Of a stretch of 64,000 nt of DNA, positions 36,380 through 63,310 are shown piece after piece. Location of the stretch: the NCBI GenBank assembly GCA_016871755.1, contig VHCJ01000007.1, positions 1-64,000 on the forward strand. Direction: 5' to 3'. The translations under genes were made by a program, and so were the position numbers. The stretch's first letter is position 1; the number at the start of each line of letters is the position of its first letter. Source of the DNA: Verrucomicrobiota bacterium (lineage in GTDB: Bacteria > Verrucomicrobiota > Verrucomicrobiia > Opitutales > Opitutaceae). The notes below the pieces were generated by a model. That model was given only the letters and a program-made list of their open reading frames with translations, was not told the DNA's origin and did not search any database.

Positions 36380-37924
36380 TCAGGCCCGGGCGAAGAGGGA
36401 GCGCACGGGCACGCCTTTGCCGTCGGACGTGACGTAGAACGGCCGCTTCTCGACGTCGTAGCCGTGGTCGGGCGGGATTCCGAGCGCGGCGTAGACCGTG
36501 GCGTGCAGCTCGGTGATGGTGACGGGATCCTTGAGCGTGCGGCAGGGCCGCTCGTCGGCGGTGATGCCGTGGACGTGGCCGCGGCGCATGCCGCCGCCGA
36601 AGAGCAGCACGCTGCCGGCAGCGGTGAAGTGGCGGTGCATGCCGTAGTGCTTCGGATCCGTGATGACCTCGGGAACGGGAACCTGGTCCTTCACCGCCTT
36701 CTCCGGCTTGCCCTCCATCATCATGTCGCGGCTGAACTCGCTCGCGAGGACGATGAGGGTGCGATCGAGCAGGCCGCGCTCCTCGAGATCGCGCACCAGT
36801 TGGGCGATCGGCGCGTCGATCATGCGCTTCATGCCGACGAGGCGGGAGTGCCCGTTCTCGTGCGTGTCCCAATTGAGGAACGGGATGTACTCGGTCGTGA
36901 CCTCGATGAAGCGGGCGCCGACTTCGCAGAGTCGTCGGGCGAGCAGGCAGCCGAGACCGAAGCGGCCGACCATCCCTACTTCGTAGCGCCCGCCGAAGCG
37001 ATCGAGCGGAGCGTCGAAACGCTGCCCCGGCTGGTAGCCCGGGAAGTAGCGCCGCGTGCTTTCGAGGGGCTCGAGCGACAAGTCGAAGGCCCGGCTGGCG
37101 GGGGAGCTGAGCAGGCGGTGCGCGTTGTCCATCGCGCGCAGGAGTGACTCCTTTTGGAAGTCGCTGCCCTCCTGTCCGATCGGGCTGGTCTCCAGCAACC
37201 GGCGGTAGAACTTGTTCCGATCGGCGAAGCGATCTGGTCCCATGCCGGCGGGCGGGCGCACCGCGTCGGCGGCCTGTTCCGGGAAGGGCACGTTGAACGG
37301 GCCGTACTCGCTCCCGAGGAAGCCGGCGGTGGTGAACGCCTTGAGCTCCTCGCCCTCGCCAAGGTCGAAGCGCTGGCCGATGTTGATGAACGCCGGCACC
37401 GCTGGATCCATCGGACCGAGCGTGCGCGCGATCCACGCGCCGAGGTGCGGGGCCGCCACCGTCTGCGGAGGCACGTAGCCGGTGTGCCAGTTGTATTGGT
37501 GGCGTGAATGCAGAATGAAGCCCAAGTCGGCGGCCTGCATGCCGCGCAGCAGCGTGCCGCGGTCCATCACGGAGGCGATTTGCTCCAACCCCTCGGAGAA
37601 GCGCACCCCTTCAACGGCAGTTGGGATCGACGGGAACGTGCTCAGCACGGTGTTTGGATCGAGGCCGGTCGAGTAAGGCGTGAACCGCTTGGGATCGAAG
37701 GTCTCCGTGTGGGCCATGCCGCCGCCCATCCAGAGCACGATGACGCGGTCGGCCGTGGCGGGCAGGCGCGGGGTTTGGCTGGCGGCGCGGAGCGAGCGGG
37801 GTGCGGCGCCGGCGAGGGCGGCGAGCGTGGCCACCGAGGCCGTCTGGAGGAAGCGCCGCCGCGTCCAGGCGTCGGGCTGGGTGCGGCGCCAGGCTGCCTG
37901 CAGGGAGAAGAGGTCGAGATTCAT
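36380..37924 (-). CDS. DUF1501 protein with Tat-type signal (second copy)
   Basis: A 514-residue protein. A twin-arginine signal (RRRFLQTASVATLAALAGAA) starts at residue 22. The body has VIVLWMGGGMAHTETFDPK, TAGFLGSEYGPFNVPFP, RRLCEVGARFIEVTTEY and LDRTLIVLASEFSRDMM, matching the DUF1501 fold. It is 13 bp behind the DUF1549/DUF1553 cytochrome gene on the same strand, so both are probably one operon exported by Sec and Tat respectively. Mirror-image copies of this two-gene design lie at 40653-45312. Confidence 0.88.
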   Translation of the reverse strand: MNLDLFSLQAAWRRTQPDAWTRRRFLQTASVATLAALAGAAPRSLRAASQTPRLPATADRVIVLWMGGGMAHTETFDPKRFTPYSTGLDPNTVLSTFPSIPTAVEGVRFSEGLEQIASVMDRGTLLRGMQAADLGFILHSRHQYNWHTGYVPPQTVAAPHLGAWIARTLGPMDPAVPAFINIGQRFDLGEGEELKAFTTAGFLGSEYGPFNVPFPEQAADAVRPPAGMGPDRFADRNKFYRRLLETSPIGQEGSDFQKESLLRAMDNAHRLLSSPASRAFDLSLEPLESTRRYFPGYQPGQRFDAPLDRFGGRYEVGMVGRFGLGCLLARRLCEVGARFIEVTTEYIPFLNWDTHENGHSRLVGMKRMIDAPIAQLVRDLEERGLLDRTLIVLASEFSRDMMMEGKPEKAVKDQVPVPEVITDPKHYGMHRHFTAAGSVLLFGGGMRRGHVHGITADERPCRTLKDPVTITELHATVYAALGIPPDHGYDVEKRPFYVTSDGKGVPVRSLFARA

Positions 37925-40490: not shown

Positions 40491-40652
40491 GTCGATAGCG
40501 AAGGCGATTTTTCGAGACTGGCAAGCCGGGGAAGCGACCGAGGCGCGACGATGGAAACGTTGGAGGTCATTCCATTTCCACTGAAAATTTCGCGGTGATG
40601 AAACTCCGGTTTGAAATGCGCCGTGAGACGCGCTTAAATCTTCCACCGCTTC
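40491..40652. promoter_or_regulatory. divergent promoter region between the two cytochrome gene pairs
   Basis: This 162-bp space is the only control region for two divergent operons. It is less GC-rich than its surroundings. TGGAAACGTTGGAG at 40552-40565 resembles one half plus the centre of a LacI-family operator, and GAAAATTTCGC follows; no regulator gene is nearby. No clear sigma-70 boxes are visible. Confidence 0.4.
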
Positions 40653-43805
<3,153 letters not shown>

Positions 43806-43875
43806 TCCGGCTGATCCGCAGACTGCCTCATCCCGGCCAAGCCGCTCGTGCGCGGCCGGAAAACTCCTCCCTCCG

Positions 43876-45312
43876 ATGAATTTCCTGACTCCTGAACAAA
43901 TCAACCGCCGCACCTTCGTCACCCGGAGCGCGTACGGACTTGGCGGACTCGCCTTCGCGCTGCTCGCCCAGCGCTCGCTCCTCGGCGCGGTGCCGGCTGA
44001 ACTCCCGGCAGAGCCCGGCTGGCGCGGGGCGCTGGCGCGGCCGCACTTTCCGGTGAAGGCGCGGCGCATCATTTACCTCTGCATGGCGGGCGGTCCCTCG
44101 CACCTTGAGACCTTTGACTACAAGCCGGAGTTGGCCCGGCTGGATGGCCAGGCCTTCCCGGAGTCGTTCACGCGCGGCCAGCAACTCGCGCAGCTGCAGA
44201 ACACGGTGTTGAAGGCCCGTGGCCCAATCGCGCCCTTCAGCCGGCACGGCCAGAGCGGCATCGAGGTCTGCGACCTCTTCCCCCGGATCGGCAGCATCGC
44301 GGACGAACTCTGCGTCGTGCGGTCGATGAAGACCGAGCAGATCAATCATGACACGGCGCACGCCTTCATGAACACCGGCAGCATCATCAAGGGCCGCCCG
44401 AGCATGGGCTCGTGGCTCTTGTACGGACTCGGAGCGGAGACGGAGAACCTCCCGGGCTTCGTGGTGCTGACCTCCAAGGGTCGCAACGGAGTCCAACCCG
44501 TGTCGGCGCGTCAGTGGAGCAGCGGCGTTCTTCCCAGCCGTTTCCAAGGAATCCAGTTCCAGTCGCAGGGCGACGCCGTGCACTACATCGGCAATCCCGA
44601 AGGCGTCTGCCAGAGCACCCAGCGCCAGGTCATCGAGGAGATCATGCGCCTCAATGGCAGTCTGGCGGACGAAACCCGGGACCCGGAGATCGCGACCCGG
44701 ATCGCGCAGTACGAACTCGCGTTCAAGATGCAGGCCAGCGTGCCGGAGCTGACGGATTTCCAGAGCGAGTCGCCGGCGATGCTGGAGCGCTACGGCGTGA
44801 AGGAGCCCGGGGATGGCTCGTTCGCCTCGAACTGCCTGCTCGCGCGACGCCTCGCGGAGCGCGGCGTGCGCATGATCCAGCTCTATCACCGCGGCTGGGA
44901 TCACCACGACGACATCGTGGGCGGCATGAAGGAAGGTGCGCAGGCGGTGGACCGCGCGACGGCGGCGCTGATCACCGACCTCAAGGAGCGCGGCATGCTC
45001 GACGACACGCTGGTGCTGTGGGGTGGTGAGTTCGGGCGCACACCGATGGGGCAGGGCACCGGGCGCGATCACCACATCCTTGGCTTCAGCCTCTTCATGG
45101 CCGGTGGCGGCGTGCGCAAGGGAACGGTTTACGGCAGCACCGACGAACTCGGCTACCGTGCGATGGAGAACGTCGTCGACGTGCACGACCTCCATGCGAC
45201 CCTCTTGGCGCTCATGGGCGTGGACCACCTCCGGCTGAACACCAAGTTCCAGGGACTCGACATCCGCCTCACCGGCGTCGCGGGCAAGGTGGTGCGCGGG
45301 CTCATGGCCTGA
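43876..45312 (+). CDS. DUF1501 protein, partner of the second DUF1549-DUF1553 protein
   Basis: A 478-residue protein. An RR-type signal (NRRTFVTRSAYGLGGLAFALLA) starts at residue 10. The body shows [81 protein letters not shown] and VVDVHDLHATLLALMGVDH. These are the hallmarks of the DUF1501 subgroup found with PSD1 proteins. It lies 70 bp downstream of the cytochrome gene. The same motifs appear in the partial gene at the end of the window. Confidence 0.9.
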   Translation: MNFLTPEQINRRTFVTRSAYGLGGLAFALLAQRSLLGAVPAELPAEPGWRGALARPHFPVKARRIIYLCMAGGPSHLETFDYKPELARLDGQAFPESFTRGQQLAQLQNTVLKARGPIAPFSRHGQSGIEVCDLFPRIGSIADELCVVRSMKTEQINHDTAHAFMNTGSIIKGRPSMGSWLLYGLGAETENLPGFVVLTSKGRNGVQPVSARQWSSGVLPSRFQGIQFQSQGDAVHYIGNPEGVCQSTQRQVIEEIMRLNGSLADETRDPEIATRIAQYELAFKMQASVPELTDFQSESPAMLERYGVKEPGDGSFASNCLLARRLAERGVRMIQLYHRGWDHHDDIVGGMKEGAQAVDRATAALITDLKERGMLDDTLVLWGGEFGRTPMGQGTGRDHHILGFSLFMAGGGVRKGTVYGSTDELGYRAMENVVDVHDLHATLLALMGVDHLRLNTKFQGLDIRLTGVAGKVVRGLMA

Positions 45313-49305: not shown

Positions 49306-51951
49306 TCAGCGCCGGGCGACGGGGGCGGGCTTGATGAGGTTCAGCTCATCCTGGGTCCACGCATCATTGCGACCCGCGGTCGCGGCGCGCACCGCGGCCA
49401 CGTCCTCGGGATCGACGGCGCTGGCGGTGTGCCCCCACTCGCGGCGCAGGTAAGTGAGGACGGCGGAAACCTGATGATCATCGAGCCCGCCGAGTCCGGG
49501 CATGTCGCCGGTGTACCACTGGTTGAGCACCACGATCGGCCCACGGACGCCGTGGAGCACGATGCGGATGGTGCGCTCGGGTGGGCCGAGGACCCATTGG
49601 GAATCCAGCAGCGGCGGGGCGACGCCATCCAGCCCGCGGCCGTCCGCCTGGTGGCACGCGGCGCAGATGCCGGCGAACAGGGCGCGACCGTTGGCGAAGC
49701 GCACTTCCTGGGCGGGAGTGAGGGGGGCGACCGAGGCAGCGGCCTCAAGGCCGGGCTTGTTGGGCCAGCGCAGGAGCGTGGTGAGATCGGAGACCGGCTT
49801 GGTTGCGGCGGGAAGCACGGCAAGCTGGGTCCAGCCTTGCGGCTCCTCCGGAAGCGTGACGGCTCGCGGAGAGGCGTTGGCCACGGTGGCGAAGCCCGCG
49901 AGCACGCTGGCCCCGAGCTCCGGGGCGGCCCGGGCCGCGGCGCCCACGGCCTGGGCGATCGCGGCCGGTTCGCGCGCGACGAAGACGCCCCCGGCGAGAT
50001 CGCTCGCGAGCGCCAGGGCGACCGCCTCGGTGTTGCCGCTTTCGAGGAGGCGCGTGAGCAGCGGGAGCTCGCGGTCGCGGATGCCGCTGAGAAACGCGCT
50101 GCGCAGGTGCACGTGCGTCGGGTCGGCGAGCACGGCGGCGAGACGGGCGGCATCGACCGCTGGATCGGCGATGCCCCCGGTGCTGAGCGCGGCTTGCAGC
50201 CGGACGAACGAGTCCGGGTCCTGCAGCTGCGCCAGCACCGCATCGAGATCGGCGCGGGCGGCGGGCTGGCTCAGGGAGGGCTCCAGGAGGCGGATGCCGG
50301 CCGACCGCACCCGTGGCGAAGGATCGCGCAGCGCCCGACGCGCCAACGCGGGATCCAGCGCGTTCAGTCCGGAAAGCGTCCAGAGCGCGTGCACCTTGCC
50401 CACGGCCGGACCGTCGCCGATGGCGACGGCCGTGATCGCGGGCACAAGGCGGCGGTCACCCGACTCGACGAGCAGGCGCTGCGCGGTTTCCCGCCACCAC
50501 GCGTTCGGGTGGGACAGCGCATCGACCCACGCCGCCAGCGGTCGCGCCGGAATGTCTCCCACGCGCGGACTCGGACGACCGTCGGGCACCAGACGGTAGA
50601 TGCGGCCCCGGTGGAGCGGCGTGGCCAGCCCGCGTTCCTCGCTCTGGCGCCGGAGGTACGACGTCAGGGAGATGCGGTGCTGCAGCACGCCGCGGTAGAG
50701 ATCGACGATGTAGAGGGCACCGTCGGGACCGGTGGTGAAGTTGACCGGACGGAAACGCTCGTCGGTCGACGTGATGAACTCCCCGCGGTCGTGCGCGTTC
50801 TGGGCGCGGACCGTGCCCTCGGTGGCGGTCAGGACGGAGCGGCGGATGAGGTTGCCGGCGGGCTCGGCGACGAAGGCGTTGCCGGAGAATTCCGGCAGCA
50901 GGTCGCCGCGGTAGATCCACGGAGCGCAGGCGGCGGTGAACTCCTTCAGCCGCCCGTTCTCGCGGAGGAAATCCTGCTTGTAGCCGCGGTTGATGCCGGG
51001 GTTGACGCGGCCCGGCCAGACGAACTGGTCGGCGGCGGCGTTGACGTTGGCGCCTGGCAGGCGGGGGAAGTGCGGGTTGCGCTTCAGGTAGTTGGACGGG
51101 ATCACGTCCACGCGCAGGTGATCGCTGTTGGAGTTGTGGTAGAGCCGCCCGGCGTCGTCCTGCGACAGCCCCCATTGTCCGCGGAACAGCGTGGGGGCGG
51201 TTTCCCAGACGCCGCCGACGCGCCGGAACTTGCGCGTGTACGCGCCGGTGTAGATCCAGTTGTCGGTGTGCCGCAGCAGGCTGTTGGGAGCGCGTTCGGG
51301 ATTGGCGAGGAACGGGCGCTTGGGGTCGGTCATGACGCCGAAGTCGGTCGCCACGACCTCCTTCGTGTCGCCCCGTCCATCGCCATCGGTGTCGCGCCAG
51401 AACGCCAGCTCGGGCGGCGTGCCGACCAGCACGCCGTCGTCGACGAGGGCGAGGGCGCGGGGGAGAACCAGTTCATCGAGGAAGACCTGCGACTCATCGT
51501 AGCGCCCGTCGCGATCGCGATCGCGGAGCACGACGATCCGGCCGGTGGGAAGGTCCTCGCCCTGACCGTCGAGGTCCGGCATGTAGCCGCGCATCTCCAC
51601 GACCCAGAGACGGCCGTCGGGGCCGAAGTGGGCGAAGACGGGCTCCTGCACCAGGGGCTCGGCGGCGGCGATTTCGAGACGGTACCCGGGGGCGACCCGG
51701 AAGCTGGTCAGGGCTTCCTCCGGGCTGAGCGCGGGAGAGGGTGGGATCAGGTGTGCGGGCACCAGCGGTGTCTGCACCACGCCGGGACGGTCTGCGTTGT
51801 CGCCGATCTGCGCGTGGGCCGGGATCGATCCAGCAAGGGCGACAAGCGCCGCGGAGGTCGCGAGACGGAGCGTGAGGAAGGGCAGCGGGGCGAACGACGG
51901 CACGGGTTCAAAGAAACGAGCAGAGGGAGCTGACGGAAGCCTAGCTTTCAT
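49306..51951 (-). CDS. PVC-type haem-binding membrane dehydrogenase with HEAT repeats and C-terminal cytochrome c
   Basis: An 881-residue exported protein. An N-terminal hydrophobic segment (LRLATSAALVALAGSIPAHA) serves as signal. The beta-propeller dehydrogenase part (EIAAAEPLVQEPVFAHFGPDGRLWVVEMRGY and GPDGALYIVDLYRGVLQHR) is followed by a HEAT-like helical region and a cytochrome c domain with CAACHQADGRGLDGVAPPL near residue 762 and a WYTGDMPGLGGL axial Met candidate. ATG 51951 directly abuts the T run of the upstream terminator; GTG 51903 is an equally good start and would give a more compact signal peptide. It leads an operon with the BNR and toroid genes. Confidence 0.85.
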   Translation of the reverse strand: MKARLPSAPSARFFEPVPSFAPLPFLTLRLATSAALVALAGSIPAHAQIGDNADRPGVVQTPLVPAHLIPPSPALSPEEALTSFRVAPGYRLEIAAAEPLVQEPVFAHFGPDGRLWVVEMRGYMPDLDGQGEDLPTGRIVVLRDRDRDGRYDESQVFLDELVLPRALALVDDGVLVGTPPELAFWRDTDGDGRGDTKEVVATDFGVMTDPKRPFLANPERAPNSLLRHTDNWIYTGAYTRKFRRVGGVWETAPTLFRGQWGLSQDDAGRLYHNSNSDHLRVDVIPSNYLKRNPHFPRLPGANVNAAADQFVWPGRVNPGINRGYKQDFLRENGRLKEFTAACAPWIYRGDLLPEFSGNAFVAEPAGNLIRRSVLTATEGTVRAQNAHDRGEFITSTDERFRPVNFTTGPDGALYIVDLYRGVLQHRISLTSYLRRQSEERGLATPLHRGRIYRLVPDGRPSPRVGDIPARPLAAWVDALSHPNAWWRETAQRLLVESGDRRLVPAITAVAIGDGPAVGKVHALWTLSGLNALDPALARRALRDPSPRVRSAGIRLLEPSLSQPAARADLDAVLAQLQDPDSFVRLQAALSTGGIADPAVDAARLAAVLADPTHVHLRSAFLSGIRDRELPLLTRLLESGNTEAVALALASDLAGGVFVAREPAAIAQAVGAAARAAPELGASVLAGFATVANASPRAVTLPEEPQGWTQLAVLPAATKPVSDLTTLLRWPNKPGLEAAASVAPLTPAQEVRFANGRALFAGICAACHQADGRGLDGVAPPLLDSQWVLGPPERTIRIVLHGVRGPIVVLNQWYTGDMPGLGGLDDHQVSAVLTYLRREWGHTASAVDPEDVAAVRAATAGRNDAWTQDELNLIKPAPVARR

Positions 51952-52528: not shown

Positions 52529-53713
52529 TCAGGGCGTTCCGGACCCGGCTTGGGAAGCGGGCGTGAAGATGCGGGACACGGAGGCCGACAGATTTTGGGG
52601 CGCCTGACGGAGAGCCTCGGCGAGCGGCGTGCCCGGCGGCGTGATCGCGTGCAGATGCAGGCCCGGGCGCTCGACGCTGGCGATCTGCCCGGCGAAGAGG
52701 TGGACGGGGCGACCGAGTTCGAGCGCGCGGCGGGCCACGGCGCCCGGACCCTTGCCCTCGAGCGAACTGGCGTCGAACCGGCCCTCGCCCGTGATCACGA
52801 GGTCGGCCGCATGCAGGCGGCGCTCGAGGTCGAGCCAATCCGCGACCAAGTCGAAGCCCGGGACAATCCGCGCCCCGAGGCCGGCGAGCAGACCGAACGC
52901 CATCGCACCCGCCGCGCCGCCGCCCGGAGTGGCGAGCGTGTCGGGCGAGCACCCGCACGCGGCGGCGAGGGCGTGGGCGAGCCGGGAAGTCTCGGACTCC
53001 AGCCGCCCATGGTCCTCCGCGCGGAGACCCTTCTGCGGACCGTACACGGCGGCCGCGCCGCGGGGTCCCAGAACCGGGTTGGTGACGTCGCCCGCGATTG
53101 CGACCGGCGGGAGCGGGTTCCCGGCCGGTGGAACGACGCGGGCGATCCGCGGCCACGCCGCCGGAACCGGCGGATCCACCGGTCTGCCGTCTGTGTCCAA
53201 AAAACGGAAACCGAGCCGGGCGAGCGCGCCCAGGCCCAGATCGTGCGTCGCGCTGCCGCCGACGCCGAGGAGGACGCCGACGGTGCCGGCGGCGGCGGCG
53301 CGGAGCAGTTCGCCGGTGCCGACCGAGGTTGCCTGCCACGGATCGCGCGCCTCCGGGCGGAGCAAGGCGAGCCCGCTGGCGACGGCCATTTCCACGACGG
53401 CGATTTCGTCGCCCTCGCGGGCGTTTGCCGTCGGCAGACGCTGGCGGGCGGCGGGCGGGATGTTGCCGTAGCGGACGCGGCCGAAGAGGGCGGACACCGG
53501 AGTGCCGCGGGGGCCGGTGACGGTGATGCGGTGGTGCGATCCCCCGGCGGCGTCGGTCAGGATCGTGGCGAAACCCTCGCCGCCGTCCGCCAGCGGGCAG
53601 GCATCGACGGTCCAGTCGGGCCGCACCTCGCGCAGCGCCGCGGCTGCAGCGCTGCAGGCGGCGGGTGCGGTGAGGGAGTCCTTGAACTTGTCGAAGGCGA
53701 GCAGGACGCGCAT
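52529..53713 (-). CDS. glycerate 2-kinase (GarK/GlxK type)
   Basis: A 394-residue kinase starting MRVLLAFDKFKDSLTAPAA. The DKFKgS motif, CPLADGGEGF, GVGGSATHDLGLGALARLGF, then GGAAGAMAFGLLAGLGARIVPG and DLVITGEGRFDASSLEGKG are diagnostic for type I glycerate kinase, which phosphorylates D-glycerate at C2 or C3. It feeds glycolysis with glycerate from sugar-acid catabolism. The gene lies in the same strand cluster as the Tm-1-like gene (179 bp upstream gap), which fits a shared acidic-sugar pathway. ATG 53713 is used; the open frame beyond it has no family resemblance. Confidence 0.92.
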   Translation of the reverse strand: MRVLLAFDKFKDSLTAPAACSAAAAALREVRPDWTVDACPLADGGEGFATILTDAAGGSHHRITVTGPRGTPVSALFGRVRYGNIPPAARQRLPTANAREGDEIAVVEMAVASGLALLRPEARDPWQATSVGTGELLRAAAAGTVGVLLGVGGSATHDLGLGALARLGFRFLDTDGRPVDPPVPAAWPRIARVVPPAGNPLPPVAIAGDVTNPVLGPRGAAAVYGPQKGLRAEDHGRLESETSRLAHALAAACGCSPDTLATPGGGAAGAMAFGLLAGLGARIVPGFDLVADWLDLERRLHAADLVITGEGRFDASSLEGKGPGAVARRALELGRPVHLFAGQIASVERPGLHLHAITPPGTPLAEALRQAPQNLSASVSRIFTPASQAGSGTP

Positions 53714-53891
53714 GGCGGGAAGGATCGCGTGAGCTTCGCGGCTTTGCGTCGCGCCGTCGAGCGTGCAGGCCGCCCAAAGCCGGTGTGGCCACGGCGGACC
53801 GGCGACGCGGCGCTGCGTCCCGGCTGGCGGGGCTTCGACGACCCATCTTCGCAAGCCCCGGCCTCGATCGGCGGGCCGGGGGTCCGCCGAC

Positions 53892-55133
53892 TCATCCCAC
53901 GCGGCGCGGTCCGGGAGCGGTCCGAAGCGAAACCAGCAGCGCCTCCGCGCAGGCGCGGGCGAACGCCGGATCGTTGATCGCGGCGGGGGATTCGATCACC
54001 GGGATGTCCGGACGCAGGAGGCGGCGCAGCGCGGCGAAGAGCGCGTCATCCGCAGCCGGGGCGTGGAACGGCTGGCCCGGGGCGCTGATGATGCTGATGC
54101 CCCCGCGGGGAAGGAGCAGCGTCACCGGACCCGTGTAGGCGTTGAGCTTCCCGGCGATGATCTCGCCGAGCCGCGCCGCCTCCTCGGGACTGGTCCGCAT
54201 CAGCGTGACCTGCGGATTGTGCTGGTAGAACGTGCGCCCGGCGAAGCGGGCCGGCACGGTGGCCGGCTCGCCGAAGTTCACCATGTCGAGGCAACCCGGC
54301 GTCACGATCGCGGGAACGCCCCGGCGTCCGGCGGCCTCGAGCCGGGTCGGACCGGCCCCGAGGATGCCGCCGACGAGTTCGTCGGCCCATTCCGTGGTGG
54401 TGATGTCGAGGACCCCGGCGACGAGCCCGCTGTCGATCAGCGCCTCCATCGCGCGCCCTCCGGTGCCGGTGGCGTGGAAGACGAGCACCTCGTAGCCGGC
54501 GGCCTCGACGATCCGGCGGGCCTCGGTGACGCAGGCGGTGGTGTTGCCGAACATGCTGGCGACGACGATCGGCCGGTCGACGGCGGGCCGTCCGCGGCGC
54601 GCCTCGGCGGCGGCGACCATGCCCTGCAGGGCGCCGGCGGCATTCTCGAAGATGGTCCGGGAGATCCGGTTCAGGCCCGCGACGTCGACGATCGCGGGAA
54701 TCATCACGAGGTCGGATGTCCCGACGTACGGAGCGGTCTGGCCGCTCGCTAGCGTCGACACCATCACCTTGGGCAGACCGATGGGCAGGGCGCGCATCGC
54801 CGCGGTGCCGATGGCGGTGCCCCCGCCGCCGCCGACCGAGATGATGCCCTGCAGGCGGCCCTCGGAAGCCAGACGGCCGACGTACGCGGCGGCGGCGCGC
54901 GCCATCAGGGCGACGCATTCCCCGCGGTCGCGCCGCGCCAGCGTCGCCCGCGCGTCTTCGGGCAGAGCGGCGAGCACCGTCTCCCGCGGGACATCGACCG
55001 GAACCGTCGGGGCCTCCAGCGAACCCACGTCGATCCGCAGCGTATCCAAGTCCAGACTACGCAGGCGGTCCGCGACGAAGGCGAGTTCGGGGCCCTTGGA
55101 GTCGTAGGTGCCCAGGATGGCGACGGTCGGCAT
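53892..55133 (-). CDS. Tm-1-like ATP-binding protein (UPF0261)
   Basis: A 413-residue protein starting MPTVAILGTYDSKGPELAFVA. The UPF0261 signature is visible: GIISVGGGGGTAIGTAAMRALPIGLPKVMVSTLASG, VASMFGNTTACVTEARRI, EVLVFHATGTGGRAMEAL and VTPGCLDMVNFGEP. This is the N-terminal half of the plant Tm-1 protein and of fungal fusions; the other half is the PEP-hydrolase-like TIM barrel, which is encoded at 61075-61953 on the same strand. Bacterial members usually sit next to that partner. Here a 5-kb ThuA gene and a cupin gene separate them. The reaction is unknown. Confidence 0.9.
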   Translation of the reverse strand: MPTVAILGTYDSKGPELAFVADRLRSLDLDTLRIDVGSLEAPTVPVDVPRETVLAALPEDARATLARRDRGECVALMARAAAAYVGRLASEGRLQGIISVGGGGGTAIGTAAMRALPIGLPKVMVSTLASGQTAPYVGTSDLVMIPAIVDVAGLNRISRTIFENAAGALQGMVAAAEARRGRPAVDRPIVVASMFGNTTACVTEARRIVEAAGYEVLVFHATGTGGRAMEALIDSGLVAGVLDITTTEWADELVGGILGAGPTRLEAAGRRGVPAIVTPGCLDMVNFGEPATVPARFAGRTFYQHNPQVTLMRTSPEEAARLGEIIAGKLNAYTGPVTLLLPRGGISIISAPGQPFHAPAADDALFAALRRLLRPDIPVIESPAAINDPAFARACAEALLVSLRTAPGPRRVG

Positions 55134-55190
55134 GGCGGGTCGGGGTGCGGTTGACGTGCGGAGCGGAGGCAGTGCGGCGGTCCCGGGTGG

Positions 55191-55230
55191 GTGGCGGTGG
55201 GACCGGGCGGTTGGCGGTGGAATCGGGCGG
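55191..55230. repeat. 20-bp imperfect direct repeat, two units
   Basis: GTGGCGGTGGGACCGGGCGG is followed immediately by TTGGCGGTGGAATCGGGCGG (16 of 20 matches) in the 191-bp space between the Tm-1-like gene start and the ThuA gene stop. Confidence 0.45.
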
Positions 55231-55324
55231 GATCGTGCGGCCGGCGCGTGCCGCGGCGGGTCGCGCCGGCGGCGGGGGAGAGGGCGAATGAGCTCGGGAC
55301 GGCGTGGCGCGGAGGGGAGCCGGG

Positions 55325-58300
55325 CTACTCGCGGCGCGCGGTCCAGCGCACGGCGTTGGTGAGCAACGTGCGGAAGGCGGGATGGTCGTGCATGCGCTGG
55401 TCGTGGCCGAGGGCGATGCCGACGACGCGGGCCTGAGGATGGCGCGTGACCCAGACGGACGGATGAGGCGTGCCGTACTTCTGGCTCGGGGACGTCTCCG
55501 CGAGAATCTCGATCGCGGACGTGCCCGGCGGCAGACGGGTGGGCTCGGCGTTCACGTAGTAGAGCTCGTCGGTGACCTCGAAGCGTTCCGGCACGCCGCG
55601 CATGACCGGATGCTGCGGCTGCACATTGCGGACGGTGAAGGGTCCGAGACGATCGTGGCCGCGGGAGCCGCCGCCCACCAGGACGGCGTTGAGTTCCGGC
55701 CACTGCGGGTAGGCGAACCACGTGCCGGCGTGGAGCAGCACGATGCCCTTGCCCGCCTGAGCGAACGCCATCAGCGCGGCGCGGTACTGCGGCGTGTCGA
55801 AGTGCTTGCGGTTGACACTGACCACCGCGACGTCGGCGCTCGCGAGCTCGGCGGCCGCCTGATCGCGGTCCTCGGTGTAATGCACCGTGAACCCGGCCGC
55901 CTGCAGCATCGCGCGGTCGACCGCGTCGAAGTAGGCCGCGAAATCATGCGAGCTCCCGCCGCCGATCAGCATGACCCGCGTCTTGCCGGCCTCCCAGCGG
56001 ACGGGTCGTGTCTCGGGCAGGGGCTGGTCGCCCTTGCTGCCCTCGCGCGGACCAATGGCGTCCGGGGCGGCGGCGGAACTCGCAACCGGGGTCGCGGCGG
56101 CGGCAGCGCTGGCGGCCGCCGGTGCAGCGGCGGCGTTTGGCCCGGCCGACTCCGGCGTGGCGGCCGCATCGGAGCGCGCGAGCTCGACCGTGACGGCGAG
56201 CGTGCAGGGAACGACGTCGTTGTCGTAGCTTTCGAGCTCGAGTTGGCGGACGAGACCGGCGGAGCGCAGCGGCAGGGAGATGAGGCGGGCGCGGCCCTCG
56301 CGCGTGAGTCCCTCGGCCACCTTGATGCCCGGCAGGTCATCGGCGCTGTCGTAGCGGGCGAAGTGAACGCCGTTGCGCAGCACGTGCTCCTCACGCGTGC
56401 CGTCGGCGAAGACGGCGGTGACGCTGAGCACCGGCTGGCCCTTGGTCGCCTCGCCGCCCTGCGGCCAGGCGCCACCGCCGAGGCCGCCGAGCAGGTGGAG
56501 CGACGAAACGGCCGCATTGACCGGCAGCACGACGCGGCGCGGGAAGTCCTCCGAGAAATGGTCGGAGCCCGCGCCGCCTTTAAGGGCGATGACGTTGCGG
56601 CCGGTGGCGGACTTGGCGGGATCCATGACGAAGAACGGGACCCCGTGGACCTTCACGTCGCCGAAGCGTTGCACGGAAATCGTCTCCTGCGTCGCGTCCT
56701 CGCGGCGGAACATGCCGCGCCGGCTGTTCGCCGTGTAGGCATCGCGAAGGTCGAGCACCCGGAAACCCTGATCGGCGGAACAGAGATAGGTCAGCAAGTC
56801 GCGAAGCCCCTCGGAGCCCATGCCCTCGAAACCCTCGGGCATGAGGGAGCGGCGCGTGTTCTCGCGGCTGGCGATGTCCTCGGTCCGCAACTCGTGATCA
56901 CCGCCGAGGGAGCGCAGCGTGAGGCCGGAGGCGTTTTCGCTGACGATGATGCCGGAGAGTGTCTCGCCCTTCTTGGTCGTGACATTCCACTGCCAGAAGC
57001 TCGGATCGACCTCGCGGTTCGGATCGAGGATGTGGACGAGCAGGGTGGCGGGGCCGTGGGCGCCCATGCCGCTGAGCGGGGGTCCGATGTCGACGAGGCC
57101 GACGTCGTTGTGGCGATGGCAGACCGCGCAGGCGGCGGCGTAGACAGCGCGGCCGCGGGCGAAGTCGCCTGGTTTCTCCACCTCGGGGGTGAGGCGGGCG
57201 ATGAGCTCGTCCTTTTGGACCGCGACCGGGTTGAGCTTGGCCATCAACGTGGCGGCGTCGCGGGCGAGATCGCGATTCGGATGAGTGCGCAGGCGGGCGA
57301 CGTCGCCGAGGTTGAGGCTGGCGGGATTGATGCGACCCTCGGCGAGATCGCCGAGGAGGAGCCGGGTGAATTCGACGCGGCGGAGGATCTGGTCGAAGGC
57401 GTTTGCGGTGCGCGTGCTGGCCCAGATCGAGATCAGCGCGCGGCCGGCATCGTCGCCGCCGATGGCACCGAGCGCGGCGAGCAGCGGGGGCTGCAGCTTT
57501 GCGGGCGTGGCGGGAGCGGTGAGCAGCGTCGTGACGCGCTCGATCACGGCGGCGCGGCGGGCGGGCAAGGCGAGCAGGCTCAGCGCCGCATCGAGACGAT
57601 CCGCGTCCGCGGTGTCGGGAGCGACGAGGCAGGCGAGCAAGTGGGCGGTGAGCGGCTCGGTCAGATCGGCAAGCTGGCTGCGACGATCGTCCCGGACGGC
57701 GAGCGGCAAGGCGGCGACTGCGGTGCCCGGGCGTTGGAGGAGGCGGCGGAGGGACGCGAGCTCATCGGCGGCGGCGGGACCGGCGGTGCCCGGAGTGGCC
57801 ATGAGGCTGCGGAGCGCGGTGGTCGCGAGGGCGTCGGAGCCCGCGGCGGCCACGGCGTTCACGACGACCGCCCGGCCCGAGGCGGGGAGCGAAGGCAGGA
57901 CGGCGGAGATGAACGGCGTGAAGACGGGACCGCGCGCATCGGCGAGGGCGGCCGCAAGGAAGTCGGCCGGATGCTCGGTCGCGGCGGCGACGAGGGCGGA
58001 CCGGGTCCAGTCATCAGACGCCTCGGCGAAACGATTGAGCACGGCGCGCCGGGCCGCGTCGCTGGTGGCCGACCGGGCCTCCTCGTAGGCGCGCTCGGCC
58101 GGGCTGCCCATGCGGCGGGCGGGGGCGGTGATGGCGGAGTGGCCCGGGAAGTTTTCGCGGAGCAGGCGCCACGCCGTGGCCCGGACGTGCTGGTTGGGAT
58201 GGGATTCGATGGCGCGGACGAGGCTGGCGGCGTCGCTCGGGTTGAGTTGCGGATCCGGCAGGGTGCGGGCCTCGCGATGCTGGATGCGCCAGATGCGGCC

Positions 58301-60379
58301 GAAGTGGTGGTCGCGGTCCGGACGGAGCGCCGCGTTGGCCGGCCCGTGCACGGGGCCGCGCGTGTCATTGTGGATCACCGCCTGATTGTAGAAATCGACG
58401 ACGTAGAGCGCGCCATCCGGGCCGATGCGGGTCTCGATTGGGCGGAACCACAGATCGCGGCTGCGAATGAATTCGGTTTCGTCGAATCCGGCCTCCTTTT
58501 CGGTGCGGTAGCTCGGGCCCTCGGGACGGAGGAACTGGTGATGAACGATGTTCAGGGTGGGCTCGCCGGTGAAGTAGCTACCCTTCCAGCGATCGGGCCA
58601 GGCCCCGCCGTCGTAGATCGCGCACCCGGCGGCGGCGGTGAAGCGACCGACCTGGTCGATCTGCACGTAGGCCTGTTCGGTCCAGTTCATCAGCGGATAC
58701 GTCCGCTGGCCGGTGATCATCCCCTTCCACGACGTGGTGCCCGGGATGCGGCCCTTGGCGAGGATCGACTCCGGCAGCAGCGTGTGGAAGAGCACGGTGC
58801 CGCTGGTCGGCTGCGTCCAGATGACCTGCCCATCCCACGTGATCTCGAGGCCCCACGTGTTGCCGCCGCGACTGCTGTACTGCTCGAACGCGGAGCCATC
58901 GGGCTTGAAGCGGACGACGCCGTTGTTGGCCACGCCGAAGGCGGTGCGGCCGTCGGGGGAAGTGACCTCGCCGCGGCTGTAGCCGTGGGTCGCGTAGATC
59001 CAGCCATCGAGGCCCCAGCGCAGGTTGTTGATGACGGCGTGGGTGTCGGCGATGCCGAGTCCGGTGTAGAGCTTGGTGCGGCGGTCGGCGCGGCCGTCGC
59101 CATCGGCGTCCTCGAGGAACCAGATGTCGGGGGCGGTGGCGGCGATGACCCCGCGGCGGTAGAGGACAAAACCTGTGACCAACTCGAGACCATCGGCGAA
59201 GACGACCTTGCGGTCCATCACGCCGTCACCGTTGGAATCCTCCAGCCAGGAGATCCGGTCCTCGGCGGGCCGGTCGGTGCGGGTCGGGTGGAGCGAGCCC
59301 GTTTCCTTCCACGGCGTGACGTTCGGGACGCGGCGGCCGTTGGGGTATTCGGGGGTTTCGCCGACCCAGAGGCGGCCGCGCTCGTCCCAGTCGATGTTCA
59401 TCACCTTGGTGACGAGCGGCTCGGCGGCGACGAGCTTGGCCGTGAACTCCGGATGCACCTCGAGCGTGGCGGCGGCTTGGGCGGGGGCGACGGGACCGCC
59501 CTCGACGTAGCGCAGGCCATCGCCGAGTTCCTCCGGGCGGCAGAGGACGTCGACATTGTCCTGCCCGGCGGCCCAGGCGATGCCGCGCAGCAGCAAGGCG
59601 CGGTAGTTGGGCCGGTTGAAAGTGGCGTAGTAGTGGCCGGGCAACGACACGAACGCGCGGTAGGGGCGCTTCGCTCCCTCCAGCGTGCGCTCGTAGGTCC
59701 ACATCTGCGGCTGGTAGTCGTAGACGCTGACCTTCTTGCCGCCGCCAGTGAGTTCCTCGGCGCGTTTCTGGGCGGCGGCGTTGCGGGCGCCGGAGGCCTT
59801 GGGCGTGTAGGATGCGGCGAGGACGCGGGCCTCGGGCTGGAGATCGAGATCGTAGTAGATTTCGTCGTCCATGGCCCAGTTGGAGGCGCCGGTAGGGATC
59901 GGGTGGACGCGGTCGGTGAAGTAGAGGTGGAGCGGACCCTCCAACCAGCGCGTGGTGCCGAAGCGCCAGGACCCGCCGATGATCGTGCGGTACCAGTCGG
60001 GATCGCGCGAGACGGCGGCGGCGTGGATCACGACGATGCCACCGCCGCGGCGGAGGAAGCCGTCGAGCGCCTCGCGCTCGTCGCCCTTGGCGATGTTGCC
60101 GGCCTCGGGGGCGTGGAGGATGAGGACGTCGGTCTCGGCGAGTTCCTCGGCGGTGGGGAAGCGGGATGCGCCGCGGGTGACGACCCCGCGCTCGGTGAGA
60201 AGGGTGGTCCACTCGGCGAGGAAGCGCGGGTGATCGTGGGCGCCCGGCCCGTGGGTCTTGGGGCCGGAGCGGATGAAGACCCGTAGCGGAGCGGCGCTGA
60301 CGGCCGACGCGAGGAGCGCGGCGGTCGCGGCGGCGAAGACAAATCCGGAAACGAGGCGGAGGAAGCGGGGCAGGGTCAC
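55325..60379 (-). CDS. giant exported protein: ThuA, PVC-type dehydrogenase, HEAT, cytochrome c, second ThuA
   Basis: A 1684-residue protein from GTG 60379 (a signal peptide follows: FLRLVSGFVFAAATAALLASAVSA). Residues 30-255 are a ThuA domain (VFIRSGPKTHGPGAHDHPR, SRDPDWYRTIIGGSW). Residues about 290-690 are the PVC haem-binding dehydrogenase propeller (FTAKLVAAEPLVTKVMNIDW, NNLRWGLDGWIYATHG, IGPDGALYVVDFYNQAVI). HEAT-type helices span about 700-1060 and a cytochrome c motif ACAVCHRHNDVG lies near 1082. After a beta-rich part (1160-1420) and an Ala-rich linker, a second ThuA domain runs from 1466 to the end (VMLIGGGSSHDF, GKGIVLLHAGTW). Two ThuA domains flanking a dehydrogenase are unusual. 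Oxidation of a surface-bound polysaccharide sugar is inferred. Confidence 0.87.
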   Translation of the reverse strand: MTLPRFLRLVSGFVFAAATAALLASAVSAAPLRVFIRSGPKTHGPGAHDHPRFLAEWTTLLTERGVVTRGASRFPTAEELAETDVLILHAPEAGNIAKGDEREALDGFLRRGGGIVVIHAAAVSRDPDWYRTIIGGSWRFGTTRWLEGPLHLYFTDRVHPIPTGASNWAMDDEIYYDLDLQPEARVLAASYTPKASGARNAAAQKRAEELTGGGKKVSVYDYQPQMWTYERTLEGAKRPYRAFVSLPGHYYATFNRPNYRALLLRGIAWAAGQDNVDVLCRPEELGDGLRYVEGGPVAPAQAAATLEVHPEFTAKLVAAEPLVTKVMNIDWDERGRLWVGETPEYPNGRRVPNVTPWKETGSLHPTRTDRPAEDRISWLEDSNGDGVMDRKVVFADGLELVTGFVLYRRGVIAATAPDIWFLEDADGDGRADRRTKLYTGLGIADTHAVINNLRWGLDGWIYATHGYSRGEVTSPDGRTAFGVANNGVVRFKPDGSAFEQYSSRGGNTWGLEITWDGQVIWTQPTSGTVLFHTLLPESILAKGRIPGTTSWKGMITGQRTYPLMNWTEQAYVQIDQVGRFTAAAGCAIYDGGAWPDRWKGSYFTGEPTLNIVHHQFLRPEGPSYRTEKEAGFDETEFIRSRDLWFRPIETRIGPDGALYVVDFYNQAVIHNDTRGPVHGPANAALRPDRDHHFGRIWRIQHREARTLPDPQLNPSDAASLVRAIESHPNQHVRATAWRLLRENFPGHSAITAPARRMGSPAERAYEEARSATSDAARRAVLNRFAEASDDWTRSALVAAATEHPADFLAAALADARGPVFTPFISAVLPSLPASGRAVVVNAVAAAGSDALATTALRSLMATPGTAGPAAADELASLRRLLQRPGTAVAALPLAVRDDRRSQLADLTEPLTAHLLACLVAPDTADADRLDAALSLLALPARRAAVIERVTTLLTAPATPAKLQPPLLAALGAIGGDDAGRALISIWASTRTANAFDQILRRVEFTRLLLGDLAEGRINPASLNLGDVARLRTHPNRDLARDAATLMAKLNPVAVQKDELIARLTPEVEKPGDFARGRAVYAAACAVCHRHNDVGLVDIGPPLSGMGAHGPATLLVHILDPNREVDPSFWQWNVTTKKGETLSGIIVSENASGLTLRSLGGDHELRTEDIASRENTRRSLMPEGFEGMGSEGLRDLLTYLCSADQGFRVLDLRDAYTANSRRGMFRREDATQETISVQRFGDVKVHGVPFFVMDPAKSATGRNVIALKGGAGSDHFSEDFPRRVVLPVNAAVSSLHLLGGLGGGAWPQGGEATKGQPVLSVTAVFADGTREEHVLRNGVHFARYDSADDLPGIKVAEGLTREGRARLISLPLRSAGLVRQLELESYDNDVVPCTLAVTVELARSDAAATPESAGPNAAAAPAAASAAAAATPVASSAAAPDAIGPREGSKGDQPLPETRPVRWEAGKTRVMLIGGGSSHDFAAYFDAVDRAMLQAAGFTVHYTEDRDQAAAELASADVAVVSVNRKHFDTPQYRAALMAFAQAGKGIVLLHAGTWFAYPQWPELNAVLVGGGSRGHDRLGPFTVRNVQPQHPVMRGVPERFEVTDELYYVNAEPTRLPPGTSAIEILAETSPSQKYGTPHPSVWVTRHPQARVVGIALGHDQRMHDHPAFRTLLTNAVRWTARRE

Positions 60380-60443: not shown

Positions 60444-60893
60444 TCACTGCAGCGTCGCGCAGGGCGGGAGGCCCTCGCGGATCGTCGTCCACGGCGCTTG
60501 GGTGGAGACGTCCTCGGGGTCGGCGACGGCGGCGAGGTCGGCCGGCAGGGTGGCGGGGGAGAGGATCGCGAGGAAGACGAGGGCCTCGTCGTGGGGATTG
60601 TAGGTCGCGTGGATGAAACCGGCGGGGATGTGGGCGATCTCGCCGGCGCGGAGGAGGCGATGGGTCTCGCCGACCCATTGCTCGGCGCGGCCGGACACCA
60701 CGTAAAGGATTTCCTCGCGGTGCGGGTGCCGGTGGAACGGGTGGCAGTGGTGGGCTGGCATGTGAGCGCGCACCAAGAGCAGCTTGTCGGCAGCGACGAG
60801 GTCGGGACGGCAGAGCCAGTCGTTGTGGGTCCACGCGTTGGACTCGCGGGCGGCCTCGGCAAGCGTGACAAAGCGGCGGTCGGCGGGATTCAT
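60444..60893 (-). CDS. cupin-domain protein
   Basis: A 149-residue single-domain cupin. The metal motif HHCHPFHRHPHREEILYVVSG (two His and a Glu) and the second cupin block GEIAHIPAGFIHATYNP with a His ligand are clear. The fold could isomerise a sugar acid or bind a small ligand. It starts 181 bp behind the PEP-hydrolase-like gene and lies 64 bp upstream of the ThuA gene on the same strand, suggesting a shared operon. No signal peptide is seen. Confidence 0.85.
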   Translation of the reverse strand: MNPADRRFVTLAEAARESNAWTHNDWLCRPDLVAADKLLLVRAHMPAHHCHPFHRHPHREEILYVVSGRAEQWVGETHRLLRAGEIAHIPAGFIHATYNPHDEALVFLAILSPATLPADLAAVADPEDVSTQAPWTTIREGLPPCATLQ

Positions 60894-61074: not shown

Positions 61075-61953
61075 CTAGTTGGAACGGCGGGCCGCGGGGG
61101 CCTTGAGCGACTTGAAGGTACGGGTGAGGGACGTGAGGGACTCCTCGACGCCCATGCGTTCCAGGCTGCTGGCGCCGACGAAGCCGACGGCGTCGGTGCC
61201 CTCGAGCACGCGTTTCGCGTCGGACGGCGTGTTGATCGGACCGCCGTGGCAGAGGAAGAAGATGTCGTTTCGGACCTGCCGCGCGGCGCGGATGATGTCC
61301 TGCGTGACCTGAAGCGTGTGGTCCCAGCTGACGACGGCCTGGCGCACGCCGACGCTGCCGCCGACGGTGGTGCCGACGTGGGCGATGATGGCGTCGGCAC
61401 CGGCCTTGGCCATTTCGACCGCCTCCTCGGGCGTGGCGACGTAGACGATGGAGAACAGGTCCATCTTCCGGGCGAGGGCGACCATCTCGTATTCCTTGCG
61501 GACGCTCATGCCGGTCTCCTCAAGGACCTGGCGGAAGTGGCCGTCGACGATGGTGTGCGTCGGGAAGTTGTTCACGCCGGAGAAGCCCATCTCCTTCACC
61601 TTGCCCAGCCAGTGCCACATCCGGCGGCGCGGGTCGGAGGCGTGGACGCCGCAGATGACGGGGACGTCCTCGACGACCGGGAGCACCTCGTACTCGCCGA
61701 TCTCCATCGCGATGGCGTTGGCATCGCCGTAGGCCATGAGACCGCAGGTGGAGCCGTGGCCCATCATGCGGAAACGGCCGCTGTTGTAGATGATGATGAG
61801 ATCGGCGCCGCCGCGTTCGATGAACTTGGCGCTGATGCCGGTGCCGGCGCCGGCGGCGATGAGGGCATCGCCCTTGTCGAGTGTCGCCTGCAGGCGCGCG
61901 CGTACTTCCTCGCGGGTGTACGGATTACCTCGTCCAGTCCAAGGGTTGGGCAT
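61075..61953 (-). CDS. phosphoenolpyruvate-hydrolase-like TIM barrel (Tm-1 partner family)
   Basis: A 292-residue TIM-barrel protein starting MPNPWTGRGNPYTREEVRARL. Characteristic blocks are IAAGAGTGISAKFIERGGADLIIIYNSGRFRM, GVHASDPRRRMWHWLGKVKEMGFSGVNNFPT, GADAIIAHVGTTVGGSVG and FLCHGGPINTPSDAKRVLEGT. This is the family called PEP hydrolase/TIM-barrel signal transduction protein, usually next to or fused with a Tm-1-like ATP-binding domain. Its partner lies at 53892-55133. It is the first gene of a minus-strand cluster. The natural substrate is not known. Confidence 0.9.
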   Translation of the reverse strand: MPNPWTGRGNPYTREEVRARLQATLDKGDALIAAGAGTGISAKFIERGGADLIIIYNSGRFRMMGHGSTCGLMAYGDANAIAMEIGEYEVLPVVEDVPVICGVHASDPRRRMWHWLGKVKEMGFSGVNNFPTHTIVDGHFRQVLEETGMSVRKEYEMVALARKMDLFSIVYVATPEEAVEMAKAGADAIIAHVGTTVGGSVGVRQAVVSWDHTLQVTQDIIRAARQVRNDIFFLCHGGPINTPSDAKRVLEGTDAVGFVGASSLERMGVEESLTSLTRTFKSLKAPAARRSN

Positions 61954-62119
61954 GGGCCAATACGGTGACGCTCGGCGCGACGGGGTAAAGCGCGGGTTTT
62001 CGCGCGGGCGGCAGAAATCGGCTTGAACGCGGCTTGTCGGCGGGCGGATTGTCGGCGTCGCCGGGACGGCGTGGGCCGAACTCCCGGCGCCGTTTCCGCC
62101 CCAACCCCGCTTTTTTCCC

Positions 62120-63310
62120 ATGACCTCATTGTCCCTGCGGCGCATCGCTGCGCCCGTTTTGTCCCTCATGGCTCTCGCGCTTGCCGGTTCGCTGGCGGCG
62201 CAGCCCGCAACCGCCCCGGCGGCGGCGCCCGCGCCGAGCGGCGTGGCGCGGCTCGATCCCACGATGGGGGCGAGCCAAGGTGCGGCGGCGGCGCTCACCT
62301 GGCACGACGTCACCACGTGGGGCGTGGAAGGCCGCGAGTGGACGGAGCGTCCGCGCGCGCGCTGGTTCGACCGCTTCCCGGCTGAGGCGCAGAAGACCGT
62401 GACCGACAAAGTCTGGAACCTCAGCCGCGACTCGACCGGCATGGTGGTCCGCTTCCGCACCGATGCGTCCTCCATTCACGTGCATTACAAGCTGATGAAG
62501 GCGCAACTGGGCATGCCGCACATGCCGGCGACGGGCGTCAGCGGCGTGGACCTTTACGCCCGGAACACGAAGGGCGAGTGGCGCTGGGTGGGGGTGACCC
62601 GTCCGGACGCGCAGGAGGTGAAGGTCGAAATCATCAAGGACCTCGCCCCTGGTCTCCGCGAGTACGCGGCGTACCTCCCGCTGTACAACGGCGTGGAGTC
62701 GATGAGCATCGGCGTGCCTGCAGGAGCGGCCTTTGAGGGACTCGCGCCGCGCCCGCGGCCGATCGTCTTCTACGGCACCTCGATTACCCACGGTGCCTGC
62801 GCCTCGCGGCCCGGCATGGTGCACCCGGCGATTCTGGGCCGACGGTTCGACCTGCCGGTGGTCAATCTCGGTTTCTCGGGCAACGGACGGATGGATGCGG
62901 CGGTCGGTGCCTTCCTCGTCGACATCGACGCGGCCGTCTACGTCATCGACTGCCTGCCGAACATGGGTCCGGGCGGCGTGACCGAGCGCACCGCGCCGCT
63001 CGTCCGGCAGATCCGCAAGTCCCGCCCGCACACCCCGATCGTGCTCGTGGAGGATCGCCGCTACACGAACGACTGGATCACGCCCGGCAAAGCGAAGTTC
63101 CACGACGAGAACCACGCGGCGCTGCGGGCGGCCTACGAAGGCCTCCTGCAGGAAGGCGTCAAAGGACTCTACTACATCGAGGGCGATCACCTCTACGGTG
63201 ACGACACGGAAGGCGCGACCGATGCTTCGCACGCCAACGACCTCGGCTTCATGCGCCAGGCGGCGGTGATGGAGCCGGTGCTCCGCGCGGCGCTGGCGGC
63301 CTCGCGCTGA
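62120..63310 (+). CDS. exported SGNH/GDSL-type hydrolase (esterase family)
   Basis: A 396-residue protein with a signal peptide (LSLMALALAGSLAAQ). An N-terminal beta-rich domain (about 60-200) carries DKVWNLSRDSTGMVVRFRTD and LREYAAYLPLYNGVES, as in the two-domain carbohydrate esterases of Verrucomicrobia and Planctomycetota. The SGNH blocks follow: VFYGTSITHGACASRPGM (catalytic Ser in GTSITHG), NLGFSGNGRMDAAV, IDCLPNMGPG and the C-terminal DASHANDLGF with Asp and His. Likely removes acetyl or other acyl groups from sugars. It is flanked by a terminator on the far side. Confidence 0.88.
   Translation: MTSLSLRRIAAPVLSLMALALAGSLAAQPATAPAAAPAPSGVARLDPTMGASQGAAAALTWHDVTTWGVEGREWTERPRARWFDRFPAEAQKTVTDKVWNLSRDSTGMVVRFRTDASSIHVHYKLMKAQLGMPHMPATGVSGVDLYARNTKGEWRWVGVTRPDAQEVKVEIIKDLAPGLREYAAYLPLYNGVESMSIGVPAGAAFEGLAPRPRPIVFYGTSITHGACASRPGMVHPAILGRRFDLPVVNLGFSGNGRMDAAVGAFLVDIDAAVYVIDCLPNMGPGGVTERTAPLVRQIRKSRPHTPIVLVEDRRYTNDWITPGKAKFHDENHAALRAAYEGLLQEGVKGLYYIEGDHLYGDDTEGATDASHANDLGFMRQAAVMEPVLRAALAASR

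Follow-up and report, generated by a model that had tools for sequence, protein, structure and literature searches.

The Locus and Its Genes

The window, which is the whole stretch of 64,000 nucleotides that was analysed, carries on its minus strand a gene for a giant protein of 1684 amino acids (55325..60379, stop included). Its frame opens with a GTG at 60379, closes with the stop codon at 55325 and has no internal stop. An alternative in-frame start, the TTG at 60871, would give a longer protein overlapping the cupin gene (60444-60893). Just after the GTG start comes a signal-peptide-like stretch (approximately aa 1-29, 60293..60379, minus strand), which is devoid of a lipobox and reaches a hydropathy of 2.3 over 12 residues from aa 13. 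This hydrophobic N terminus agrees with the export proposed in a preliminary description of the DNA, and the protein is probably exported. On the opposite strand, an open frame of 1660 amino acids (55304-60286, plus strand) spans nearly the whole giant gene; we take it as a shadow frame of high-GC sequence.

The giant gene stands in a cluster, all of it on the minus strand. Upstream lie a cupin gene (60444..60893) and a PEP_hydrolase-like TIM barrel, Pfam PF09370 (61105..61905, within the frame 61075-62475), a relative of the solved structure 2p10 (Mll9387). Downstream lies a UPF0261 or Tm-1-like gene (53934..55130, within the frame 53892-55721), whose relatives 3wry and 9mpy have been solved, followed by a glycerate kinase (52529..53854). 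The kinase is a possible member of the cluster and is also found in the clusters of three other loci (L015, L135 and L190).

Further frames of the window deserve mention. A second DUF7133-HEAT-cytochrome c protein, with 881 aa and without a ThuA match, is encoded a few genes downstream of the giant (49306-51951, minus strand). A frame of 2044 aa (37938-44072, minus strand) contains PSCyt1, PSCyt2 and PSD1 from approximately residue 1270 onward, and its N-terminal 1250 residues gave no Pfam match at E 0.001. There are also a DUF1501 gene at 36380-37924, a 7-bladed lactonase at 34967-36193, and a 1259-aa protein with CHRD, DUF1800 and LamG domains (26204-29983, plus strand).

Domain Architecture of the Giant Protein

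On the giant, Pfam recognizes two ThuA domains, DUF7133 and a cytochrome c stretch, while NCBIfam places TIGR02604 at aa 312-700 (247.3 bits against a cut-off of 122.2) and TIGR02603 at aa 1071-1201 (106.8 bits against 68.15). AlphaFold2 models were built from family alignments for aa 31-1205 (mean pLDDT 75.3, pTM 0.57) and aa 1060-1684 (mean pLDDT 74.7, pTM 0.44). The pTM values are low, so the relative placement of the domains is not to be read from these models. The chain had been described as ThuA-dehydrogenase-HEAT-cytochrome c-ThuA; this order stands, and helical repeats do appear in the model, but the HEAT stretch has no Pfam match and a beta-sandwich had been overlooked.

After the first ThuA comes the DUF7133 / TIGR02604 propeller (aa 299-702, 58274..59485), identified by Pfam, NCBIfam and the model. 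It leads into an all-helical, HEAT-like repeat region in the model (approximately aa 717-1067, 57179..58231), and aa 706-1060 gave no Pfam match even with the limit at E 10. The TIGR02603 heme domain (aa 1071-1201, 56777..57169) contains the only CxxCH of the giant, CAVCH at aa 1084-1088, in which both Cys and the His are invariant in 29 rows. A match of this domain to the anammox diheme protein Kustd1711 was obtained as well, and its strand part probably accounts for weak Foldseek rows to Hfq (ranks 34-50, E approximately 0.004-0.006).

The modelled beta-sandwich of about 197 residues (approximately aa 1205-1401, 56177..56767) drew no Pfam match even at a limit of E 10, and it is optional, being present in 14 of 28 aligned giant members and absent in the other 14. 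Its model resembles AziU3/U2 (7wuw and 8gs1, Z 14.5-14.7), from which we draw no function. An Ala-rich linker (approximately aa 1404-1452, 56024..56170) precedes the second ThuA as had been noted, with 21 Ala in 46 residues (1405-1450) and a pLDDT below 50 at approximately 1404-1452. In its overall makeup, the giant is a variant of the PVC-type heme-binding proteins.

Two ThuA Domains of Different Type

ThuA 1 occupies aa 68-270 by Pfam PF06283 (59570..60178; modelled domain approximately aa 31-275) and ThuA 2 occupies aa 1485-1680 (55340..55927). The claim that this single 1684-residue frame bears ThuA at both ends was borne out by both approaches. Cut out and searched alone, the two ends score 89.7 and 109.1 bits, respectively, against the PF06283 cut-off of 33.4. 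Among the relatives, window included, all 29 N-terminal pieces and all 28 C-terminal pieces have Pfam ThuA (E up to 0.001), the latter set omitting one fragment of 47 residues. Structure prediction likewise gives a ThuA fold at each end: aligned with 4e5v by VIA-align, the model of ThuA 1 reaches Z 21.9 (rmsd 2.7, 222 aligned) and that of ThuA 2 reaches Z 22.1 (rmsd 2.7, 209 aligned). Repeated weak profile matches of ThuA 2 to designed 'Pizza' proteins were disregarded.

The two domains are 25% identical over 200 alignment columns, and their profiles match with a probability of 97.8%. Both types have an invariant His after a 'GGG/GKG' strand, a DE-x-Y motif and a GH close to the end, and the printed alignment with ThuA 2 has the same motif letters in 4e5v. 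The invariant residues correspond as H119/H1550, D172-E173/D1604-E1605, Y175/Y1607, G248-H249/G1658-H1659 and W269/W1679. Their conservation through 29 and 27 rows argues that both domains are functional.

A tree of 70 rows, with arbitrary rooting and several long branches, separates all 29 N-terminal domains (100/98) from all 28 C-terminal domains (98/94). These separate clades rule out a recent tandem duplication, and the pairing is therefore old. The C type groups with the ThuA of single-ThuA DUF7133 proteins at weak support (94/59), and the N type sits across a 97/83 branch from it. That ThuA domains normally occur singly held in the genomes sampled: a survey of 44 phylum genomes, which always includes the window's own, gave 79 matches (E up to 1e-5) in 78 frames, with only the window's frame double, and the 43 other genomes contributed 72 matches in 72 frames.

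Distribution and Inheritance

The giant is present in all nine same-genus genomes searched, each time as a single uninterrupted frame of 1677-1833 aa with 59-91% identity. Outside the genus its occurrence is patchy: 2 of 27 same-family genomes carry it, one in a copy truncated at a contig end, and 1 of 20 same-order genomes has a diverged form. Scanning of named genome contigs gave 33 giant loci, among them two Verrucomicrobium records and MAGs of Opitutaceae, Prosthecobacter and Akkermansiaceae. Both ThuA types, DUF7133 and the heme domain share one frame in 28 of the 33 (two with ThuA 2 cut by a contig end), and the remaining five are cut by contig ends before ThuA 2. The giant is also a single frame in Verrucomicrobium BvORR106 and BvORR034, two records without a MAG label. 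The double-ThuA architecture, found in one frame across relatives and patchy outside the genus, is rare but inherited rather than accidental.

From its size and handles, we take the even sample of 387 phylum genomes to be the same for the N-type ThuA, PF09370 and PqqC searches, the listings naming part of the genomes that gave no match. In it, 19 genomes have the N-type ThuA, with 20 matches in total (E up to 1e-35). Fifteen lie in giant-family frames of 1318-1854 aa, one in a single-ThuA protein of 1308 aa, and four are lone proteins.

Three further observations concern related sequences. The four lone proteins (L195-L198; 251-306 aa, from four genomes) are 46-50% identical to the N-type ThuA, with PF09370 absent from the stretches read. 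A giant fragment of 61% identity (L027) occurs on a contig labelled Acidobacteria. In the window's own genome, close ThuA and DUF7133 matches share a frame at G000:C6:75275-77173 with a TAA inside DUF7133, possibly a broken ThuA-DUF7133 gene.

The Gene Cluster and Its Recurrence

The giant is strongly linked to the UPF0261/PEP_hydrolase module: its usual neighbour is PF09370, in many cases accompanied by UPF0261 and a cupin and in some by glycerate kinase. Of the named loci, 25 offer 1500 bases or more of upstream sequence, and 22 of these have a same-strand PF09370 gene there (L014, L016 and L022 do not). PF09370 also neighbours 8 of the 11 phylum-sample giants read, the three without it (L127-L129) being of one genus; one phylum-sample giant, L126, appears to be on the same contig as the named locus L017. 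Among 57 relatives, PF09370 is present in 13 of 13 giant-carrying genomes (adjoining in 12, and 7 kb off in G054) against 4 of 44 without the giant. In the 387 phylum genomes it is present in 19 of 19 with the N-type ThuA, four of which have the lone protein only, against 11 of 368 others. The Fisher values for this co-occurrence, 1e-9 and 7e-25, respectively, are not corrected for kinship.

Viewed from PF09370, the association extends to DUF7133 proteins beyond the giants. The phylum sample has 33 PF09370 genes in 30 genomes, and 25 of these genes have a DUF7133 frame no more than 5 kb away, against about 6% expected. DUF7133 is itself abundant in these bacteria, and the expectation is based on its 561 matches in the 30 genomes (146.7 Mb, about 3.8 per Mb). 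The eight genes without such a frame are those of G180, G054, G422, G232, G235 and G244 and the divergent copies G285:C3 and G282:C10; in G054 a DUF7133 frame lies 7.0 kb away, for G422 the count covers 9 kb of a 14.7-kb contig, and G180 has no DUF7133 match at E 1e-10.

The 25 partners are diverse in their domains. They include 12 double-ThuA giants, a giant-like protein of 1702 aa (L191), a ThuA-[weak GDSL]-DUF7133-HEAT-cytochrome protein (L137) and a ThuA-DUF7133 protein on the opposite strand (L185). Six partners (L176, L178, L180-L183) combine DUF7133 with PF06439, the 3-keto-disaccharide hydrolase domain, which takes the place of ThuA in four and stands beside a ThuA in two; Pfam finds no PF06439 in the window's giant. 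LamG is also among the carbohydrate-linked partners of these DUF7133 proteins. Three partners (L177, L179 and L184) are plain DUF7133-HEAT-cytochrome proteins with neither ThuA nor PF06439, and a lone ThuA gene lies near that of L177. The last partner belongs to L190, a split form of the giant. There, glycerate kinase, cupin and PF09370 are followed by a lone ThuA that is 40% identical to ThuA 2 of the giant and then by ThuA-DUF7133-HEAT-cytochrome, with signal-like starts by eye on both of the last two.

The module also exists without the giant. A cupin-PF09370-UPF0261 trio is present in Sinorhizobium and Rhizobium, where a carbohydrate ABC transporter is close by, and a haloarchaeon has the trio too, the cupins being only 26-30% alike. 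In Thermomicrobium, the PF09370-UPF0261 pair stands beside a branched-chain-amino-acid-type ABC transporter with no cupin adjoining, a setting that does not point to sugars.

The Propeller and the Question of PQQ

The best structural relative of the propeller by VIA-align is 3a9g, a PQQ-dependent sugar dehydrogenase (Z 25.3, 285 aligned, rmsd 3.0), and AA12 and sGDH rank just below it, the group spanning Z values of about 23-25. Lactonases and DFPase are also among the structural rows. Pfam with the limit at E 10 gave PF23500 as the sole match on the propeller and none to GSDH (PF07995). An initial comparison of profiles, DUF7133 against five GSDH rows, was uninformative, and hhalign of the propeller profile against GSDH gave a probability of 94.9%, significant overall. 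In this weak alignment, inspected by eye, the canonical PQQ site agrees only in part: an Asn and an Arg match and a His falls one column off. A Ketogulonicigenium plasmid 1 'dehydrogenase', 29% identical to DUF7133, was considered as a characterised L-sorbosone dehydrogenase and dropped, because the excerpts of PMC6293013 put the plasmid-borne gene on plasmid 2; those of PMC4793288 were of no help on the plasmid 1 protein.

Synthesis of PQQ was approached through PqqC and PqqE. PqqC over the cut-off was found in none of the 57 relatives and in 6 of the 387 phylum genomes, all six of one family (f24) and none a giant carrier; the search is therefore able to detect PqqC. None of the 27 carrier genomes examined (13 relatives and 19 from the phylum sample, five shared, some incomplete) has PqqC over the cut-off. 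PqqE over the cut-off was likewise found in none of the 57 relatives, and its matches below the cut-off do not differ in kind from those in every control genome. A propeller dependent on PQQ would oblige the cell to import this cofactor, and such an enzyme would not be self-contained.

Proposed Function and Alternatives

We know of no activity recorded for DUF7133, and to our knowledge the chemistry of ThuA is not settled. Our preferred reading, to which we give a probability of roughly 40%, is that the giant is an exported one-chain enzyme that oxidises and then processes its substrate, feeding a cytoplasmic module; we infer the chemical steps, the substrate, their order, the electron acceptor and the cofactor alike. 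Acting outside the cytoplasm, the DUF7133 propeller would oxidise some glycoside or derivative of a sugar, and the electrons would pass to the heme of the same chain and from there into respiration. The oxidised (keto) sugar might then be taken up by the two ThuA domains, which differ in type and would work sequentially or on two different products, with the beta-sandwich, where present, perhaps helping to hold the substrate. A small product would then enter the cell, to be broken down by the cupin, PEP_hydrolase and UPF0261 of the cluster, possibly with the glycerate kinase. The best lead for pairing oxidation by the propeller with keto processing by a partner domain is that ThuA swaps for, or joins, the 3-keto-disaccharide hydrolase in the same cluster.

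The giant had earlier been proposed as a self-contained exported sugar-oxidising machine. Sugar oxidation gains from the likeness of the propeller to 3a9g and from the heme motif in the same chain, and the sugar itself we infer from the domain partners. The words 'self-contained' should be given up, given that the gene is usually clustered with cytoplasmic-type enzymes, that a split version exists, and that PqqC was found in 0 of 27 carriers.

The two ThuA domains could instead be inactive binding or docking modules, leaving the chemistry to propeller and heme only, as in PVC-type proteins that have a single ThuA or lack it. The DUF7133-heme proteins without ThuA that adjoin the same PF09370-UPF0261 pair (L177, L179 and L184) fit such a role, as do the variable beta-sandwich and linker. 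We consider it unlikely nonetheless, as the core His, Asp-Glu, Tyr and Gly-His are kept in both domains without exception, and a ThuA resembling the C type is a separate protein in the L190 cluster. Equally doubtful is that the propeller oxidises a non-sugar, such as an alcohol, a lactone or an aromatic, and that its ThuA and 3-keto-hydrolase partners are products of a general reshuffling of domains in these genomes. Lactonases and DFPase among the structural rows, the Thermomicrobium transporter, and a density of DUF7133 genes that implies many settings for the domain all speak for a non-sugar substrate; against it, the best structural rows are sugar dehydrogenases and the partners PF06439 and LamG are carbohydrate-linked. 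That an error of sequencing or assembly joined two genes, or that the frame is open by chance, for which only the long shadow frame of the high-GC opposite strand could be adduced, is ruled out for practical purposes by the uninterrupted frame in nine of nine same-genus genomes and in BvORR106 and BvORR034.

The double-ThuA member, the recurrent cluster, the split form and the 3-keto-hydrolase fusions together allow a concrete, testable guess at the substrate chemistry and place the Tm-1-like/PEP_hydrolase pair in a metabolic context. A bolder reading we offer at long odds. DUF7133 may be an unrecognised class of glycoside 3-dehydrogenase that is exported, delivers electrons to its own cytochrome c and uses a cofactor other than PQQ or PQQ itself; ThuA may be a processor of keto sugars, interchangeable with the 3-keto-disaccharide hydrolase; and PEP_hydrolase and UPF0261, the bacterial counterparts of plant Tm-1, may form the cytoplasmic end of the pathway.

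Comparison with Known Systems

Pfam lists DUF7133 as a domain of unknown function. Searches of the CC-licensed PMC texts gave no paper in which ThuA is mentioned together with cytochrome or PVC heme terms and, among the matches listed, no title on a ThuA-DUF7133-cytochrome fusion; among the matches listed for CC-licensed papers there was likewise no description of a link between the giant and the UPF0261/PEP_hydrolase module. For the PSCyt cytochrome group of Verrucomicrobia, which is comparable to DUF7133, the excerpts of PMC5615132 report nothing known of function. For the Tm-1-like proteins, those of PMC5028733 discuss a putative interaction of the two bacterial domains and name no reaction.

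Among the closest known systems are the PVC-type heme-binding CxxCH proteins (TIGR02604 with TIGR02603; DUF7133), which like the giant unite a propeller, helical repeats and a heme domain in a single exported chain. The giant differs from them in adding a distinct ThuA at each end and, in half of its aligned members, a beta-sandwich. An N-terminal ThuA joined to DUF7133 also occurs in single-ThuA proteins of the same order and family (for example L055-L058, L069 and L070). Their ThuA, however, matches the C-terminal type of the giant in BLAST, and the portions of their frames that were read contain no second ThuA.

The rhizobial ThuA/ThuB pathway handles trehalose via 3-keto sugars, with separate cytoplasmic proteins and a dehydrogenase of the NAD type. 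It shares with the giant a ThuA beside a sugar oxidoreductase, whereas the giant is a probably exported single chain with a heme-linked propeller. PQQ-dependent soluble sugar dehydrogenases (sGDH, Asd and AA12) have the propeller fold in common with the giant (Z about 23-25), but the giant has no Pfam GSDH match and PqqC is absent in the carriers examined.

A further related system is the periplasmic 3-ketoglycoside route of LacABC and DUF1080. In the excerpts of PMC9007349, DUF1080 (PF06439) proteins have roles as a 3-ketotrehalose hydrolase and a proposed 3'-ketolactose hydrolase, and the route is proposed as an exported oxidation followed by cleavage, as we propose for the giant. The giant departs from that route in that it is without PF06439 and its putative oxidase is the DUF7133 propeller; PF06439 is found in DUF7133 proteins of the same cluster elsewhere.
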